A stretch of 64,000 nt of DNA from Companilactobacillus pabuli. GTDB lineage: Bacteria; Bacillota; Bacilli; Lactobacillales; Lactobacillaceae. Within the stretch, counting starts at the first letter, position 1. Every line of letters starts with the position of its first letter. The stretch covers positions 1,922,001 to 1,986,000 of the forward strand of contig NZ_CP049366.1 of the NCBI RefSeq assembly GCF_014058425.1, in the 5' to 3' direction. This document shows, in pieces, positions 50,347 through 57,373 of this stretch. The position numbers were made by a program, and so were the translations under genes. Under the pieces are notes generated by a model that was not told where the DNA came from, made no database searches, and saw only the letters and a program-made list of their open reading frames with translations.

Positions 50347-50784
50347 ATGACAAATGAAATTATGGATCGTAACAATTTAATGAGAAATTGGTTCAACAAT
50401 GATTCTTGGATGAACAATTTTCCATCCATATTTGACAACAATTTCCCAGAAGATTCAACATTAAAGACTGATATTAAAGAAACTGATAAAGATTACGAGG
50501 TTCATGTAGATATGCCTGATTTTAACAAGAAGGATATCGACATTAATTATGAAAATGATGTACTAACAATTAGTGGTCATCGTGATAGCTTCAACGACCA
50601 CAATGATAAGAACGGTGATATGATTATGAGCGAACGTTCAAGTGGCCGTTACATGAGACAATATCACTTGCCAGCAGTTGATTCAAAGAGTATCAAAGCT
50701 ACTTATGACAAGGGTGTTCTAGAAGTTAACCTTCCAAAGCTAGAAAAGAAGGTTGAATCAGGACATCACATTGATATTGACTAA
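50347..50784 (+). CDS. hsp20: Small heat-shock protein, Hsp20/alpha-crystallin family
   Basis: 145 aa ATP-independent chaperone. N-terminal region rich in Asn/Trp/Phe, alpha-crystallin domain from about residue 42 (TDIKETDKDYEVHVDMPDFNKKDIDINYENDVLTISG) to 135 (KGVLEVNLPKLEK). AAAGGAAG precedes the ATG. CIRCE upstream and a strong terminator downstream show a single heat-regulated gene. Confidence 0.93.
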   Translation: MTNEIMDRNNLMRNWFNNDSWMNNFPSIFDNNFPEDSTLKTDIKETDKDYEVHVDMPDFNKKDIDINYENDVLTISGHRDSFNDHNDKNGDMIMSERSSGRYMRQYHLPAVDSKSIKATYDKGVLEVNLPKLEKKVESGHHIDID

Positions 50785-50821
50785 TAATTTAAAAATATCA
50801 ATTTAACTTCGACTTTTCAGA

Positions 50822-50869
50822 GAAGTCCGACTTACTGCATTTTGTTCGGTATGGTCGGGCTTTTTTTTG
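50822..50869 (+). terminator. Intrinsic terminator after hsp20
   Basis: AGTCCGACTTACTGC / GGTATGGTCGGGCT stem and eight Ts. Confidence 0.85.
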
Positions 50870-50879
50870 TTGATTCTTG

Positions 50880-51044
50880 CCGTCCTCCATAGCAAAGAAA
50901 ATTTGGCTGGAACGTAGTGGGCACGATTTTGAGCTTTTGCATGAACCAAGGGCGCAAAATCTCAAAACTCGGCCTTATTCTAAGCAACAAGTTGCTAAGA
51001 ATAATTTCACTACTGAGCCAATTTTCTTTGCTATTCCGGACTAG
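50880..51044 (-). repeat. Palindromic interspersed repeat, copy-1 group
   Basis: 165 bp, reverse orientation, nearly identical to 7583-7747. Begins CCGTCCTCC and ends CCGGACTAG. Confidence 0.9.
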
Positions 51045-51087
51045 ATAGTGTTTTTATTTTTTATATAATAAAAGACACAATTGCACC

Positions 51088-51141
51088 TTCACAGTTTCTT
51101 CACATTTTATAAATACATTTTTCATATTAATAAAGTACTAT
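51088..51141 (+). promoter_or_regulatory. PhoP-like box array and promoter of C-rich RNA 1
   Basis: Hexamers every 11 bases: TTCACA (51088), TTCACA (51099), TAAATA (51110), TTCATA (51121), then TACTAT as -10 at 51136. The 11-bp spacing and TTCACA/TTAACA-like half-sites are those of Gram-positive PhoP boxes. Matches the array at 52601 in position and sequence. Confidence 0.6.
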
Positions 51142-51149
51142 ATAAATTG

Positions 51150-51247
51150 TAGATGAGAGATGTAATAAATCCCTTTTCTCACCCCCTATAACATATATAT
51201 ATTTAATCCCCTAATTTAAAAAACACCTTTCCCCGAGGTGTTTTTTT
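51150..51247 (+). ncRNA. Predicted small RNA 1 with C-rich core
   Basis: About 98 nt. Starts GTAGATGAGAGATG, weak hairpin TGAGA/TCTCA, then CCCCCTATAACATATATAT and AATCCCCTAA, ending in terminator AACACCT / AGGTGTT with a T-run. No open frame with a ribosome site is present. Homologue at 52662. The start point is estimated from the -10. Confidence 0.6.
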
Positions 51248-51292
51248 ACGTATTTTAGGTATCTGCTAGTAGTAGTTATACACAAAATAAGC

Positions 51293-51566
51293 TATACTGA
51301 TATATGCAGAGTGGAATTTTTCTACTCTCATGGGATGTAGTATTAAAATACTGCAAAAGGACTTAAGAATTTATAAAATTTAAAAAGACTTATCTATAAA
51401 CAGGGCTATCCAAGTTTTACGTAATAAAAAATATTAAAACTATTTTCTGATAAGCCTGTAACAAACGAAAAACTGATAAAAGATGACTATACTTTTATCT
51501 TCCCCCCTATAACAAAATAAATCCCCTAAAAAGGGCATCCTTTTCTGATTAAGGATGCCCTTTTTG
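51293..51566 (+). ncRNA. Predicted longer RNA 3 with the same C-rich core
   Basis: A -10-like TATACT (51293) is followed by hairpins GAGTGGA/TCTACTC and GTAGTATT/AATACTGC, a CAGGGCTATC/GATAAGCCTG pairing, then GATAAAAG/CTTTTATC (51475-51499), CCCCCCTATAACA, AATCCCCTAA and terminator AAGGGCATCCTT/AAGGATGCCCTT (51531-51562). The 3' third has the same order of elements as RNAs 1 and 2. No protein is encoded. Its 5' end is uncertain, and it has no TTCACA array. The terminator also serves the LacI gene. Confidence 0.42.
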
Positions 51567-51571
51567 CTTAC

Positions 51572-52525
51572 CTATTCTTCATTTAATGTTCCACGTAAAA
51601 TCAATTCTGATGGAATCATCTTCTTCACAACGTCTTTTTCAAAGATAGACCAAAAAGCATATTCGCCAATTTCAGTCAATTTGTGATCAACCGTAGAAAA
51701 ATCCATCAAACGGCTGTAATCCAAATCTTCCTGACCGATAACTGGGATTTTCTTCTTCATTTTGATCAATTGTTGAATTACCCCGGCTGCAACTTGGTCA
51801 CTATTAGCAAAAATCACCTGTAAATCAGGATCTTTCTCTAGTAAATATTGAGCACCGAGATTACCACCTTTAAAATCTTTAGCTTTATTGTAAACGTGGT
51901 CTTGATCGATTTTCTTATCAAAAACTTGACGATAAGCGTGTTTAATTAATTTGGTCGACTGGCTTGAAGATTCTTTACGACTGACCGTAACGCCGATATG
52001 GTCAAAATTATGTTGCTGCAACACTTCGAAAACATCAATAAATGACTGGCCCCGATTCGTATAAGCGCAAGAAATTGGGTAATCGAAGGTATCTTCACAA
52101 CAAGTGATAGGTCCATACTGTTTGTATTCGAGAATTTTTTCAAATGAGATAGCTCGGGAAGTAAAAATAATTCCATCAAAAGCATGATGCTTTAGCATCT
52201 CCAAGTATTTGATTTCATTTTCTTCGTTATAATCCGATGGCAATAAAATTACTTGATAATCTTCCTTGAAAGCCACTCGAGTGATAGCAGCGACTAATTT
52301 TTGAAAATATGGAATACTAATATACGGCAAAACAACTCCAACGGTGTGCGTTTGACCAGTACTTAAAGCACGGGCAACATCGTTAGGATGATAATCTAAT
52401 TTTTCCATTGCATCAATGATTTCGGCCCTAGTTTTGGCAGCAACATAATCTCGATCATTGATAACTCGAGAAACTGTCGAGACCGAGTGCTTGGAAAGTT
52501 TGGCGACATCTCTAATATTTGACAT
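51572..52525 (-). CDS. LacI-family transcriptional regulator
   Basis: 317 aa from ATG 52525 (AGGAG eight bases upstream). N-terminal HTH: SNIRDVAKLSKHSVSTVSRVINDRDYVAAKTRAEIIDAMEKLDYHPNDVARAL; the rest is a periplasmic-binding-like sugar domain (HTVGVVLPYISIPYFQKLV; FDGIIFTSRA; VIFANSDQVAAGVIQQL). No sugar genes lie next to it, so its regulon is unknown. It is enclosed by the three C-rich RNA units. Confidence 0.92.
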   Translation of the reverse strand: MSNIRDVAKLSKHSVSTVSRVINDRDYVAAKTRAEIIDAMEKLDYHPNDVARALSTGQTHTVGVVLPYISIPYFQKLVAAITRVAFKEDYQVILLPSDYNEENEIKYLEMLKHHAFDGIIFTSRAISFEKILEYKQYGPITCCEDTFDYPISCAYTNRGQSFIDVFEVLQQHNFDHIGVTVSRKESSSQSTKLIKHAYRQVFDKKIDQDHVYNKAKDFKGGNLGAQYLLEKDPDLQVIFANSDQVAAGVIQQLIKMKKKIPVIGQEDLDYSRLMDFSTVDHKLTEIGEYAFWSIFEKDVVKKMIPSELILRGTLNEE

Positions 52526-52600
52526 AAAGATCACTCCTGATTTGGATTGTTAGCTTGCTACATCATGATAAATGTAGCCTTTTTCATGAAAAAGCTAATC

Positions 52601-52654
52601 TTCACATTTTCTTCACATTTTCAAAATATTTGGTTCACACTTATTAAGTATAGT
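52601..52654 (+). promoter_or_regulatory. PhoP-like box array and promoter of C-rich RNA 2
   Basis: TTCACA at 52601, 52612 and 52634, with a degenerate AAAATA-type site at 52623: an exact 11-base period. TATAGT (-10) at 52649 lies 15 bases after the start of the last site, the same offset as in the array at 51088. Confidence 0.65.
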
Positions 52655-52661
52655 ATTAATT

Positions 52662-52757
52662 GTAGATGAGAGATACGAAATCTCATCTCATCCCCCCTAT
52701 AACATATATATTTAATCCCCTAAAAATTAAAAGAACACCTTCCCCGGGTGTTCTTTT
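52662..52757 (+). ncRNA. Predicted small RNA 2 with C-rich core
   Basis: About 96 nt: GTAGATGAGAGATACG, perfect 7-bp hairpin GATGAGA/TCTCATC, CCCCCCTATAACATATATA, AATCCCCTAA, then terminator AAGAACACC/GGTGTTCTT with six Ts, which also works for menG/ubiE on the other strand. No open frame with a ribosome site. Confidence 0.65.
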
Positions 52758-52764
52758 TTCGTGC

Positions 52765-53469
52765 CTATTTTCTTGCGGAATGAATTGCGGCAGCCTTCAA
52801 CATTAAATTTGTGACTTCAATATCGTCAAAGCCCGCATCTTGCATCATTTGAGCTAGTTGTTTAATACTAACGAACTTATTAACTGAGTCGTCCAAATAT
52901 TGATATTCCGGCTTACTTTTGGCAAAGATTTTTCCCATCATGGGCATCAAGTGATTGAAATACATTTCCCAACCTAATTTGATGACTGGTGTTTGAACTT
53001 TAAAAGCTTCCAAACAAATCAATTGCCCCTTAGGTTTTAAAATACGAAAGATTTCACTCAACACTTGATTGGCATCTGGTACATTACGCAAGCCAAAACC
53101 AATCGTTACCACATCAAAATGCTTATCAGAAAAATTCAAATCCATCGCATTGCCTGACATTAATTCAATATTAGTTAAATTCGAAGCCGCAACTTTTGTT
53201 TGGGCAATCTTTAACATTTCAGAACTAAAATCTAATCCAATGACTTTGGCATGTGGATATTTTCGAGCCAACATAATCGTCCAATCGGCTGTCCCACAAC
53301 AAAGATCAAGAATCATGTCTGGTCCATTATCAATCTTTGCTGTAGCGATTTTACGCCATTTTTGATGGGTTCCTAAACTCATAATGGAATTTAGTTTGTC
53401 ATAGTTGCCAGCTATATTATTGAAAGTCTTTTGAACATCTTTTTGAGGAACTTTATTAGTCAGGCTCAT
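52765..53469 (-). CDS. ubiE: Demethylmenaquinone methyltransferase
   Basis: 234 aa class I SAM methyltransferase of the UbiE/MenG family. Motif I in MILDLCCGTADWTIMLA, UbiE signature VTIGFGLRNVPD, and LICLEAF. It methylates demethylmenaquinone in the last step of menaquinone synthesis, or a related quinone; no other men genes are in the window, so the organism may use external precursors. AGAGGT precedes the ATG. It follows the phosphatase gene by 10 bases. Confidence 0.92.
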   Translation of the reverse strand: MSLTNKVPQKDVQKTFNNIAGNYDKLNSIMSLGTHQKWRKIATAKIDNGPDMILDLCCGTADWTIMLARKYPHAKVIGLDFSSEMLKIAQTKVAASNLTNIELMSGNAMDLNFSDKHFDVVTIGFGLRNVPDANQVLSEIFRILKPKGQLICLEAFKVQTPVIKLGWEMYFNHLMPMMGKIFAKSKPEYQYLDDSVNKFVSIKQLAQMMQDAGFDDIEVTNLMLKAAAIHSARK

Positions 53470-54272: not shown

Positions 54273-54301
54273 CAAAAATACACTTAGGGGAGATGTTTCT
54301 T

Positions 54302-55642
54302 TTGGCTACAAATGATCAGCAGTACCGCAACCCAGACGCAGTCTTAGACGTCTACGAAAAACCACCACTAGGCAGCTGGGCCTTTTTATCTTTACAGCAC
54401 TTATTCTCAATGTTTGGTGCCACCGTTTTGGTACCGTTACTAGTTGGACTAGATCCTAGTATTGCTCTTTTTAGTTCTGGTGTTGGAACAATTATTCATA
54501 TTTTAATCACTCATCGTAAGATTCCAGCTTACATGAGTTCTAGTTTCTCATTCATTGTGCCGATGGTTTCCTTGATGAAGACAGTTGGTTATGCCGGCGT
54601 CGCCCAAGGTACCATTGCCGTTGGTATGGTTTACTTGATTGTTTCATTGGTCGTCGGCTTCATTGGTTCTGATTGGATCGACAAAGCTTTACCACCTATC
54701 GTCGTTGGACCAATCGTTATCGTCATTGGTATGTCAGTTGCCGGAAGTGCCGCTAACAATGCCATGATGAACGGTTCTCACTACGATTTAACTTACTTTG
54801 GTGTCGCTATGTTCACTTTATTCTTAACTGTTATTTTGAACATGGTTTTGAGAGGATTTTGGAGTAATATTGCTATTCTTTTAGGTATCGTCGGTGGTTA
54901 TATTTTAGCCGTTGCCTTAGGTATCGTTGATTTTTCAAAAGTTATTTCTACACCTTGGTTCAAATTACCAGCTTTTGATGTTATGTTTGCTAACTACATG
55001 CCTAAGAAAATTTATTGGGGTGCTATCTTGAGTTTTGCACCAATCGCCTTCGTAACGATGGCAGAGCACTTGGGACACATCATGGTGCTAGACGAATTGA
55101 CTGGTCGTGACTTCTTCAAAGATCCCGGTCTTCATAAAACTCTAGCTGGTGATGGTACAGCCTCAATCGTTGCCGCCTTTCTAGGTGGTCCTCCTGTAAC
55201 ATCATATGGTGAAAACATTGGTGTTATGGCTGTTAATAAGATTTTCAGTGTTTACGTTGTTATCGGAGCCGCTGTCTTCGCTGCTCTGTTTGGATTCATT
55301 GGTAAATTGAGTGCCTTGATTCAAACAATCCCTGGACCAGTTATCGGTGGTATCAGTTTCGTATTATTCGGAGTTATTTCATCCAGTGGTTTGAGAATCC
55401 TAGTTGATAACAAAGTCGACTTCAACGAAAAACGTAATTTGATGATTGCCTCAGTTATCCTAGTTATCGGTATCGGTAATGCTTATCTACAAATCGGCAG
55501 TTTCCAATTTACTGGTGTTGGTGTAGCTACAGTTGTTGGTATTATTTTGAACTTGATTTTACCAAAACACGCCTTGTCAGAACATTGGGACGATGACAAA
55601 GATGACTGGAAAAGGGATCAAAAAGCAAAAGGAAATGCTTAA
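54302..55642 (+). CDS. uraA: Uracil permease
   Basis: 446 aa NCS2 transporter from TTG 54302; GGGGAG is nine bases upstream, so the ATG at 54293 is too close. About fourteen helices, with FSMFGATVLVPLLVGLDPSIALFSSG at the start, AEHLGHIMVLDELTGRDFF in the substrate region and GGPPVTSYGENIGVMAV, all UraA landmarks. Imports uracil with protons; the PyrR attenuator upstream agrees. Its ribosome site TTAGGGGA is exactly complementary to TCCCCTAA of the small RNAs at 51150 and 52662. Confidence 0.93.
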   Translation: MATNDQQYRNPDAVLDVYEKPPLGSWAFLSLQHLFSMFGATVLVPLLVGLDPSIALFSSGVGTIIHILITHRKIPAYMSSSFSFIVPMVSLMKTVGYAGVAQGTIAVGMVYLIVSLVVGFIGSDWIDKALPPIVVGPIVIVIGMSVAGSAANNAMMNGSHYDLTYFGVAMFTLFLTVILNMVLRGFWSNIAILLGIVGGYILAVALGIVDFSKVISTPWFKLPAFDVMFANYMPKKIYWGAILSFAPIAFVTMAEHLGHIMVLDELTGRDFFKDPGLHKTLAGDGTASIVAAFLGGPPVTSYGENIGVMAVNKIFSVYVVIGAAVFAALFGFIGKLSALIQTIPGPVIGGISFVLFGVISSSGLRILVDNKVDFNEKRNLMIASVILVIGIGNAYLQIGSFQFTGVGVATVVGIILNLILPKHALSEHWDDDKDDWKRDQKAKGNA

Positions 55643-55978: not shown

Positions 55979-57373
55979 AAAAATCGCCAATTGAGAAAAC
56001 ACGGTAATTTATTGCCGTGATGAATCAATGAATTATGCAATTTTAGGTGTTTCAGCAAACATATGTTCCCCTAACGTGATATAATTACAATACAAAATCA
56101 TAGGAGGGGGTTCATATGGTCTTAAAGGGTATTAAATTACATATCTATCCAGATGATTACCAAAAGGAACTTATTGAATACAACTTTGGCGCTAATCGTT
56201 TTGTTTGGAATAATATGTTAGATATGATGATCAAACGCCATGAAAATAATCCAGATTTAAAATCTTTGAAAGCATTTGATTTGAACTATATTTTAACAAC
56301 TTTCAAAAAAGAACACTCTTGGCTAAAGAAAGCTGAAAGTACTAGTTTACAAGTTTCTAATAAAGACTTATTTGAAGCGTACAAGGGATTCTTTAGTAAA
56401 AAACGTAAATTCCCACGATTCAAAAGTAAGAAGTTCCCAAAACAAAGCTATCAATCTAAATTTGTTAATAGAAACATAGAAATTATCGATGATTCTTACG
56501 TTAAATTACCTAAACTTGGAGTAATGAAGTATAAGAACAAAAAAGCTATCCCTAGTGTAATCAAGTACGTAACTATTCGTAAATCATCAACTAACAAATA
56601 TTACGCCATTCTTACGGTTGATGAAGATATTACTCAATTACCAAAGACAAACAAGTCTGTCGGCCTTGATATGGGCGTTTGTGACCTAGTAATCTGTTCA
56701 GACGGAAGTAAATATAAGACAATCCGATTTGATAAGAAACTTGCTAAAAAGAAACACTATTGGGAAAAACGATTAGCCAGACGACGTACGCAAGCTCTAA
56801 AAGATATCCAGTATAAAAAGAAATTTGGATTGATTGATCCAAAACCTTTAGAACAATACTCAAACTATATGAAAGCTAAACTTATGGTAGCTAAATATAG
56901 TGAGAAGATAGCTAATCAAAGAAAAGACTATCTCCATAAGATAACTCGTGAATTAGTTGAGAATAATGATTTGATTGTTATTGAAGATTTGAAAACCAAA
57001 AATCTTCTTGGTAATCATAAACTATCACGTGCCATCGCTAATCAATCATGGAGAGCATTAAGATTGATGCTTGAATACAAATGTGAATGGTACGGTAAGA
57101 AACTTCTGGTTGTTAATCCATTCAAGACTAGTCAAATCTGTTCTAACTGTGGGTACGATGATGGTAAACACAAGTTAAGTATTAGAGAATGGGATTGTCC
57201 TAGTTGTGGTATTCATCATGATCGTGATATCAATGCAAGTAAAAATATATTGAACAATGGCTTGGAACAAGCCTTAGTAAAATAGTTCTAGCCTCTACCG
57301 ACTGGTTGAGATACTAGTTGGCAAGTATGGAATGTTCCTAGAAGCTCGGTACTTTAGTGCCGATGTAGTTCAC
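55979..57373 (+). mobile_element. IS200/IS605-type TnpB-only element, copy 2 (1395 bp)
   Basis: Same ends and length as copy 1; left flank TTTAT (55974-55978). The right end abuts the 3' end of fbp: the TGA stop of fbp (57372-57370) lies inside the element. Removing the element would restore an AAA TAA ending, so the protein sequence is unchanged. Predicted guide is 57374-57393. Confidence 0.92.
56116..57285 (+). CDS. tnpB: TnpB RNA-guided nuclease (OrfB), copy 2
   Basis: 389 aa, no indels against copy 1. RuvC Asp in SVGLDMGVCDL, Glu in IVIEDLKTKNL, zinc ribbon CSNCG ... CPSCG and final Asp in HHDRDINASKN are all present. GGAGGGGG lies six bases before the ATG. Differences from copy 1 are scattered substitutions, many silent, which suggests both have been under selection or moved recently. 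Confidence 0.93.
   Translation: MVLKGIKLHIYPDDYQKELIEYNFGANRFVWNNMLDMMIKRHENNPDLKSLKAFDLNYILTTFKKEHSWLKKAESTSLQVSNKDLFEAYKGFFSKKRKFPRFKSKKFPKQSYQSKFVNRNIEIIDDSYVKLPKLGVMKYKNKKAIPSVIKYVTIRKSSTNKYYAILTVDEDITQLPKTNKSVGLDMGVCDLVICSDGSKYKTIRFDKKLAKKKHYWEKRLARRRTQALKDIQYKKKFGLIDPKPLEQYSNYMKAKLMVAKYSEKIANQRKDYLHKITRELVENNDLIVIEDLKTKNLLGNHKLSRAIANQSWRALRLMLEYKCEWYGKKLLVVNPFKTSQICSNCGYDDGKHKLSIREWDCPSCGIHHDRDINASKNILNNGLEQALVK

Follow-up and report, generated by a model that had tools for sequence, protein, structure and literature searches.

Organization of the locus

Companilactobacillus pabuli is a food-related lactic acid bacterium, and to our knowledge few trans-acting small RNAs (sRNAs) have been described in lactobacilli. 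The window, by which we mean the whole stretch of 64,000 nucleotides analysed here (positions 1,922,001 to 1,986,000 of contig NZ_CP049366.1), contains two sRNA genes of about 98 nt each, at 51149-51247 and 52662-52759, read from the sequence. The features of the locus are as follows.

51088..51126, + strand: predicted regulator-binding region of sRNA-A, TTCACA-N5-TTCACA-N5-(TAAATA)-N5-TTCATA
51139..51144, + strand: -10-like element of sRNA-A, TATATA; the exact hexamer is uncertain, within 51136-51144, with a similar offset in relatives
51149..51247, + strand: sRNA-A; 5' hairpin, C-run 1, UAUAACA-AU linker, C-run 2, CCCC-loop terminator; predicted ends
51268..51298, + strand: putative RNA-C promoter-like region, AGTAGTAGTT ... 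TATACT at 51293-51298, in conserved upstream sequence
about 51306..51565, + strand: RNA-C; structured 5' domain, then CCCCCCUAUAACA...AAUCCCCUAA module, terminator; predicted ends
51572..52534, - strand: LacI-family regulator gene, a neighbour of the sRNAs by position alone
52601..52639, + strand: predicted regulator-binding region of sRNA-B, TTCACA-N5-TTCACA-N5-(AAAATA)-N5-TTCACA
52651..52656, + strand: -10-like element of sRNA-B, TAGTAT, from the sequence
52662..52759, + strand: sRNA-B; anatomy as sRNA-A; predicted ends
54284..54292, + strand: uraA ribosome site, TTAGGGGAG, complementary to UCCCCUAA; a weakly supported candidate target

The hexamers of sRNA-A begin at 51088 (TTCACA), 51099 (TTCACA), 51110 (TAAATA) and 51121 (TTCATA); the 5' end GTAGATGAGAGAT lies at 51149, followed by CCCCCTATAACA and AATCCCCTAA, and the terminator runs to about 51247. 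Those of sRNA-B begin at 52601 (TTCACA), 52612 (TTCACA), 52623 (AAAATA) and 52634 (TTCACA), with the same GTAGATGAGAGAT at its 5' end, 52662, and a terminator running to about 52759. Both RNAs are predicted to fold into a hairpin at the 5' end, two C-runs that stay unpaired, and a terminator whose loop carries CCCC. Direct reading confirms the twin units with common 5' end, C-rich core and terminator that an earlier note on this DNA had described; RNA-C and further copies of the sRNAs had escaped it. The LacI-family gene that it placed between the twins is present in the window, but is no obligatory partner: among the 38 stretches fetched there are 9 in which it was undetected, two of these (L056 and L073) being truncated at a contig end. 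Elsewhere in the window, at 56116-57285, is a reading frame that by eye resembles an IS605-type TnpB protein. Outside the window, locus L054 has a T-box leader above the Rfam gathering score (753-988, - strand).

The sequence AATCCCCTAA occurs three times in the window, the third time at 51520, against 0.19 occurrences expected, and none of 100 shuffles reaches three; the exact core is found three times in the whole genome and its reversed control not at all. On folding, sRNA-A and sRNA-B are each better than all of 200 shuffles (z of -3.87 and -5.35). Among 36 aligned RNAs, 91.1% of the cells in two helices pair, and 14 of 16 pairs have changed on both sides, a covariation score that none of 500 shuffles reaches and that falls at every step when the helix partners are shifted. 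Because the structure was derived from the same 36-RNA alignment, this count leans towards structure. Of the 36 aligned copies, 23 retain an ATG close to the 5' end (GTAGATGAG) and 13 have lost it, so that the sRNAs look non-coding, in agreement with the earlier reading that the units encode no protein. Rfam gives no match at gathering score anywhere in the window; at E up to 5, the interval 50780-52780 gives 7 weak matches, all below their own gathering scores.

Conservation across the genus

How widely is the arrangement distributed? Core and promoter were both searched for, much as had been suggested. Of the 36 genus genomes 35 have the sRNA core, as against 0 of 24 outside the genus, and in the exception, a genome of 1.5 Mb, the promoter is still there, ahead of an RNA whose core has diverged. 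The exact four-hexamer pattern has 90 sites, distributed over all 36 genus genomes, and the reversed control has none. The fetched loci include 90 distinct four-hexamer sites, three of them cut by the locus end; all 87 readable sites have a C-rich RNA within about 110 nt, with the strict core in 67. Within 38 fetched loci there are 74 core copies, 69 with the array and five that are RNA-C copies without it, counts that are not independent, since copies were selected by the core and a threshold of 14/18 hexamer matches and the genomes are kin. The predicted non-coding RNAs range from 87 to 134 nt, most genomes of the genus have several copies, and the position of the locus is largely syntenic. 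Scanning named genomes, where near records of our own genome may be missing, gave 35 stretches, of which 31 are labelled Companilactobacillus (one an uncultured Lactobacillus bin) and four belong to unrelated bacteria; we take the latter for chance matches.

A covariance-model search of the order found 11 of 395 genomes, six from the genus and five others (G401, G041, G083, G121 and G163). Among those five only G401, from a different genus of the same family, has the promoter, as GTCATA/TTCACA/TTCACA before a C-rich RNA. We regard the predicted RNAs as a genuine sRNA family of csRNA/LhrC design, found throughout the genus.

The hexamer array and its probable regulator

The array has a period of 11 nt. 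Of the four TTCACA-type hexamers originally claimed at that spacing, positions 1, 2 and 4 hold up as TTCAYA; the third is degenerate and A/T-rich, with AAATA its commonest form. Within the window, TTCAYA-N5-TTCAYA-N16-TTCAY occurs exactly only at sRNA-A and sRNA-B. Relaxing the search to three mismatches yields 7 matches where 3.57 are expected, a number that 11 of 100 shuffles also reach, so that only the exact matches are distinctive. In 69/69 promoters hexamers 1 and 2 read TTCAYA, and among hexamers 1, 2 and 4 taken together position 3 is C in 207/207. The -10 follows about 10-12 nt past the last hexamer, and in 68/69 copies the RNA 5' end, located by pattern, lies 61 nt from hexamer 1; the remaining copy differs by a substitution. 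The shared -10 offset noted earlier for the two units is near-fixed, with a similar one in relatives, and a direct-repeat promoter of OmpR-family type before the sRNAs is supported.

Which regulator might act at these repeats? The genome has nine OmpR-family regulators. One, L088 (C1:637103-637852), has its partner kinase adjacent; the best NCBIfam models are PieR (NF041209) for L088 and PieS for the kinase, both under the curated cut-offs (284 versus 450 bits and 437 versus 850, respectively). A relative of L088 is found in 36/36 genus genomes at E <= 4.4e-106, one of these matches being partial. Across the order, the exact four-hexamer pattern occurs in 24 of 395 genomes, 18 of them outside the genus (reversed control: 5 hits in 4 genomes). 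None of these 18 occurrences was recognised as an sRNA promoter: five lie before a regulator gene, four at an htrA-like gene, and nine inside genes or with no clear pattern. The four htrA-like sites, which by eye have a DnaA-box-like sequence alongside, were set aside. In genus g13, from another family, the exact pattern lies just upstream of a response-regulator gene in 5 of 7 sampled genomes; compared with our nine, this regulator is closest to L088, at 55-58%, against 28-40% for the remaining eight. Searched for over the whole class, the box turned up in 31/398 genomes, for the most part with no evident link, and its reversed control gave 4 hits in 3 genomes; ten of the box hits, all from one genus, fall at a single place beside an rpoD-like gene (by eye) and not before an sRNA. 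The Bacillus-like genome G497 has a TTCATA-N5-TTCATA box flanked by a regulator gene on one side and, on the other, a permease-like gene divergent from it. We take this regulator to be YclJ-like; among our nine it is closest to L088, at 54%, with the others at most 46%. The DNA-recognition helix of L088, RTVDAHIKKLRQKI, recurs in the g13 proteins unchanged or with a single residue different; it is close to that of the Bacillus-like regulator, and differs from that of PhoP.

In two other lineages, then, the box is shared with the neighbourhood of a regulator of the L088 kind, and this neighbourhood suggests that the sRNA activator is probably a PieR/YclJ-type regulator. A YclJ recognition sequence was reportedly published by Ogura in 2010. 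The region upstream of the L088 gene itself has no TTCAYA pair, and among upstream regions of 40 relatives outside the genus, 4 reach 14/18 hexamer matches, versus 47 of 800 shuffled; only two of the four (L213 and L242) have the match near the gene start. Autoregulation as a general rule for L088-type regulators was rejected on these numbers.

One might think instead of another of the genome's own OmpR-family regulators, for example L092 or L095, which we take to be LisR/CsrR-like and CiaR-like, respectively; relatives of both LisR and CiaR would then be among the nine. There is precedent in that LhrC of Listeria needs LisRK (PMC4132741, in excerpt) and the csRNAs of Streptococcus need CiaR, which uses the N5 direct repeat NTTAAG-N5-TTTAAG (PMC3091779, in excerpt). 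That repeat, however, is unlike TTCAYA and was not found in the sRNA promoters, L092 and L095 have recognition helices unlike that of the box-associated regulators, and the box adjoins L088-type genes elsewhere. We consider activation by one of these other regulators unlikely, and retain the PieR/YclJ type as the probable activator.

RNA-C, a third RNA with the same module

RNA-C, downstream of sRNA-A, also carries CCCCCCTATAACA...AATCCCCTAA, behind a promoter different from that of sRNA-A and sRNA-B: its promoter-like region has no TTCACA boxes. The search gave 24 RNA-C matches, of which 18 were aligned; left out were two without a found end and four of one clade, which have a TTCAYA promoter inside. 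The 18 aligned sequences have common invariant blocks and two 5' hairpins. The blocks of the 5' domain are UGGGAU, AAGAAUUUAUA, GACUUAUC, GGGCUAUCC and GAUAAGCC. The second hairpin and the terminator show compensatory changes, and the first hairpin one-sided changes only. In the consensus fold, the UGGG of the 5' domain pairs with the C-run and GGCUAUC pairs with GAUAAGCC; the positions concerned never vary, so that covariation speaks neither for nor against these two pairings. The 5' domain, conserved and structured and with no Rfam match, is possibly a sensor domain.

Could RNA-C bring a second signal to the system? One can imagine a two-input post-transcriptional switch, in which sRNA-A and sRNA-B are activated by the PieR/YclJ-type regulator and the sensor-like 5' domain of RNA-C controls exposure of the C-rich effector. 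Alternative stems could form around GACUUAUC, GGGCUAUCC and GAUAAGCC, and UGGG could pair with CCC in the C-run. We regard the switch as conceivable but doubtful; if it exists, one set of target mRNAs would receive both an envelope signal and one from a ligand or protein.

Candidate targets and a proposed circuit

What would the C-runs bind? The earlier idea that they are suited to pairing with G-rich ribosome sites is supported, and such pairing is plausible. In the genome of C. pabuli the pattern TTAGGGG-N4-12-ATG has 31 matches, versus 13 for the reversed pattern, and five other genomes have 139 versus 59. We fetched 30 of the 31 sites and 90 of the 139; 94 of these 120 gave a frame of at least 60 aa, 18 of them from our own genome. 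By a simple hydropathy rule, a hydrophobic segment is found in 13/18 of the own-genome TTAGGGG genes versus 18/45 genes of the window (Fisher p 0.027), and in 63/94 over the six genomes versus the same 18/45 (Fisher p 0.003). The enrichment of these sites at envelope and transport genes is only suggestive, because the 45 window genes are not a set matched for Shine-Dalgarno words. At least one site (L351) is an internal methionine of a permease. Some target orthologues, named by eye, recur between species: a DUF308-like protein (L291, L365), a fructose-type PTS component (L329, L332), a small membrane protein (L354, L376, L405), an amino-acid permease (L371, L404) and a secreted protein (L373, L400). 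This recurrence could be simple inheritance.

The particular target proposed earlier, uraA, fares less well. The 8-mer TTAGGGGA is indeed present at 54284, but it is kept in only 6 of 27 sequences, our own genome counted, with the GGGG run in 26 of 27, and uraA was therefore dropped as a conserved target by the 8-mer. An alignment of relatives, by eye, suggests that uraA probably starts at the in-frame TTG at 54302 rather than at the ATG at 54293.

Taken together, these observations make it likely, in our judgment, that the locus encodes multicopy sRNAs of csRNA/LhrC type, activated by a PieR/YclJ-type regulator and blocking GGGG Shine-Dalgarno sites. We picture a family of trans-acting sRNAs, each behind a four-position direct-repeat promoter, at which L088 would bind TTCAYA-N5-TTCAYA and replace the -35 contact. 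The kinase would be triggered most likely by envelope or secretion stress; the sRNAs, being multicopy, would then accumulate additively, and their C-runs would pair with GGGG-type Shine-Dalgarno sequences, blocking translation of transporters and of surface and secreted proteins.

It might be argued that the sRNAs mainly sponge a protein or another RNA, with RNA-C perhaps a controlled partner, rather than act at many ribosome sites. The CCCCUAUAA linker stretch is conserved beyond the apparent need of a C-run seed, and RNA-C has the same module behind an independent promoter, both of which would suit a sponge. The three separate C-runs, on the other hand, fit the design of an anti-Shine-Dalgarno sRNA, and TTAGGGG sites are frequent at envelope genes. 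A sponge as the main function seems to us decidedly unlikely, and blocking of Shine-Dalgarno sites remains the favoured role.

The proposed phosphate connection

The sRNAs had been read in the earlier note as phosphate-starvation RNAs under PhoP. In Gram-positive bacteria, sites of the PhoP/PhoB type are direct repeats at an 11-nt period placed before the -10, as here, and the genome of C. pabuli has a phoPR-pst-phoU operon and a second pst operon (gene names by eye). The two upstream regions examined, however, carry TTTACA-N5-TTTACA-N5-TAAACA (L099, by eye and by script) and TATACA-N5-TATACA (L098, picked by eye), not TTCAYA with its invariant C at position 3. A matrix trained on the sRNA promoters gives no hit in either region, and in g13 and G497 the box adjoins a different response regulator. 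PhoP was rejected as the activator on this comparison of boxes, two phosphate regions against the sRNA hexamers, and we now hold a phosphate-starvation role under PhoP to be very unlikely. That the repeats are instead a mobile or low-complexity element without regulatory use, as the short arrays of four or five sRNA copies at the same locus in L082, L058 and L067 might hint, is scarcely credible in view of the near-invariant spacing, the covarying helices and the largely syntenic place across the genus.

Relation to known sRNAs and two-component systems

RsaE/RoxS are C-rich, translation-blocking sRNAs under a two-component system, and in this they are like the sRNAs here; they differ in that no Rfam match at gathering score for them is found in the window. 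LhrC likewise has no gathering match in the window, and is absent from the 7 weak matches within 50780-52780. Among the literature matches listed, none ties Companilactobacillus to these sRNAs, which is a weak negative.

The csRNAs of the CiaRH regulon offer close parallels, with several similar sRNAs per genome, direct-repeat-N5 promoters about 10 nt before the -10, and, in many, two stem-loops around an unpaired anti-Shine-Dalgarno stretch (PMC3091779, in excerpt). The predicted structures here share the unpaired anti-Shine-Dalgarno region between stem-loops, and the RNAs are multicopy. They differ in repeat (TTTAAG at two positions there, TTCAYA at four here), in probable regulator type and in bacterial family; the comparison is one of descriptions, not of sequence similarity. 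LhrC1-5 of Listeria are also multicopy, with three C-rich sites, one of them in the terminator loop, and they combine two-component control with a block of translation at Shine-Dalgarno sites (PMC4132741, PMC5880928, both in excerpt). LisR control, unlike in LhrC, is not suggested by the box here. PieRS of Listeria and YclJK of Bacillus are alike in the likely type of regulator. PieRS controls PrsA chaperones, and a term search finds no occurrence of sRNA in the PieRS paper (PMC12234432); YclJ activates operons with envelope-glycosylation functions, and the targets named in the excerpt are protein operons (PMC7961091).

If the proposed circuit is correct, it would constitute a genus-wide multicopy sRNA family with a simple circuit, and would connect control of the envelope by sRNAs with a little-understood type of two-component system, PieRS/YclJK. 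The csRNA/LhrC design would then seem to have arisen under a third type of regulator, with RNA-C perhaps a form of this effector that is itself regulated.

Other sites with similar promoters

Three further places in the C. pabuli genome and one outside it deserve mention. At C1:134816 (- strand, L033) there is one more exact TTCACA-N5-TTCACA site, the third; a -10-like TAGTAT follows after about ten nt, and then a short stretch that contains CCACCCTCCC and a hairpin resembling a terminator. This is possibly another regulon member. At C1:2249257 (+ strand, L049/L284) a near-match four-hexamer promoter precedes an apparently non-coding stretch of about 300 nt that carries AATCCCCTAA, CTCCCCCCTAA and TTCCCCG. 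Another near-match, at C1:265349 (+ strand, L037), lies before a 33-codon frame that includes a hydrophobic stretch and has GAGGTG as its ribosome site. Finally, in G046, from another family, a TTCACACTTTTTTCACACTTT box and a -10-like element (L273/L283) stand before a short stretch with TTCCCC in a terminator loop, a possible relative under the same regulator.
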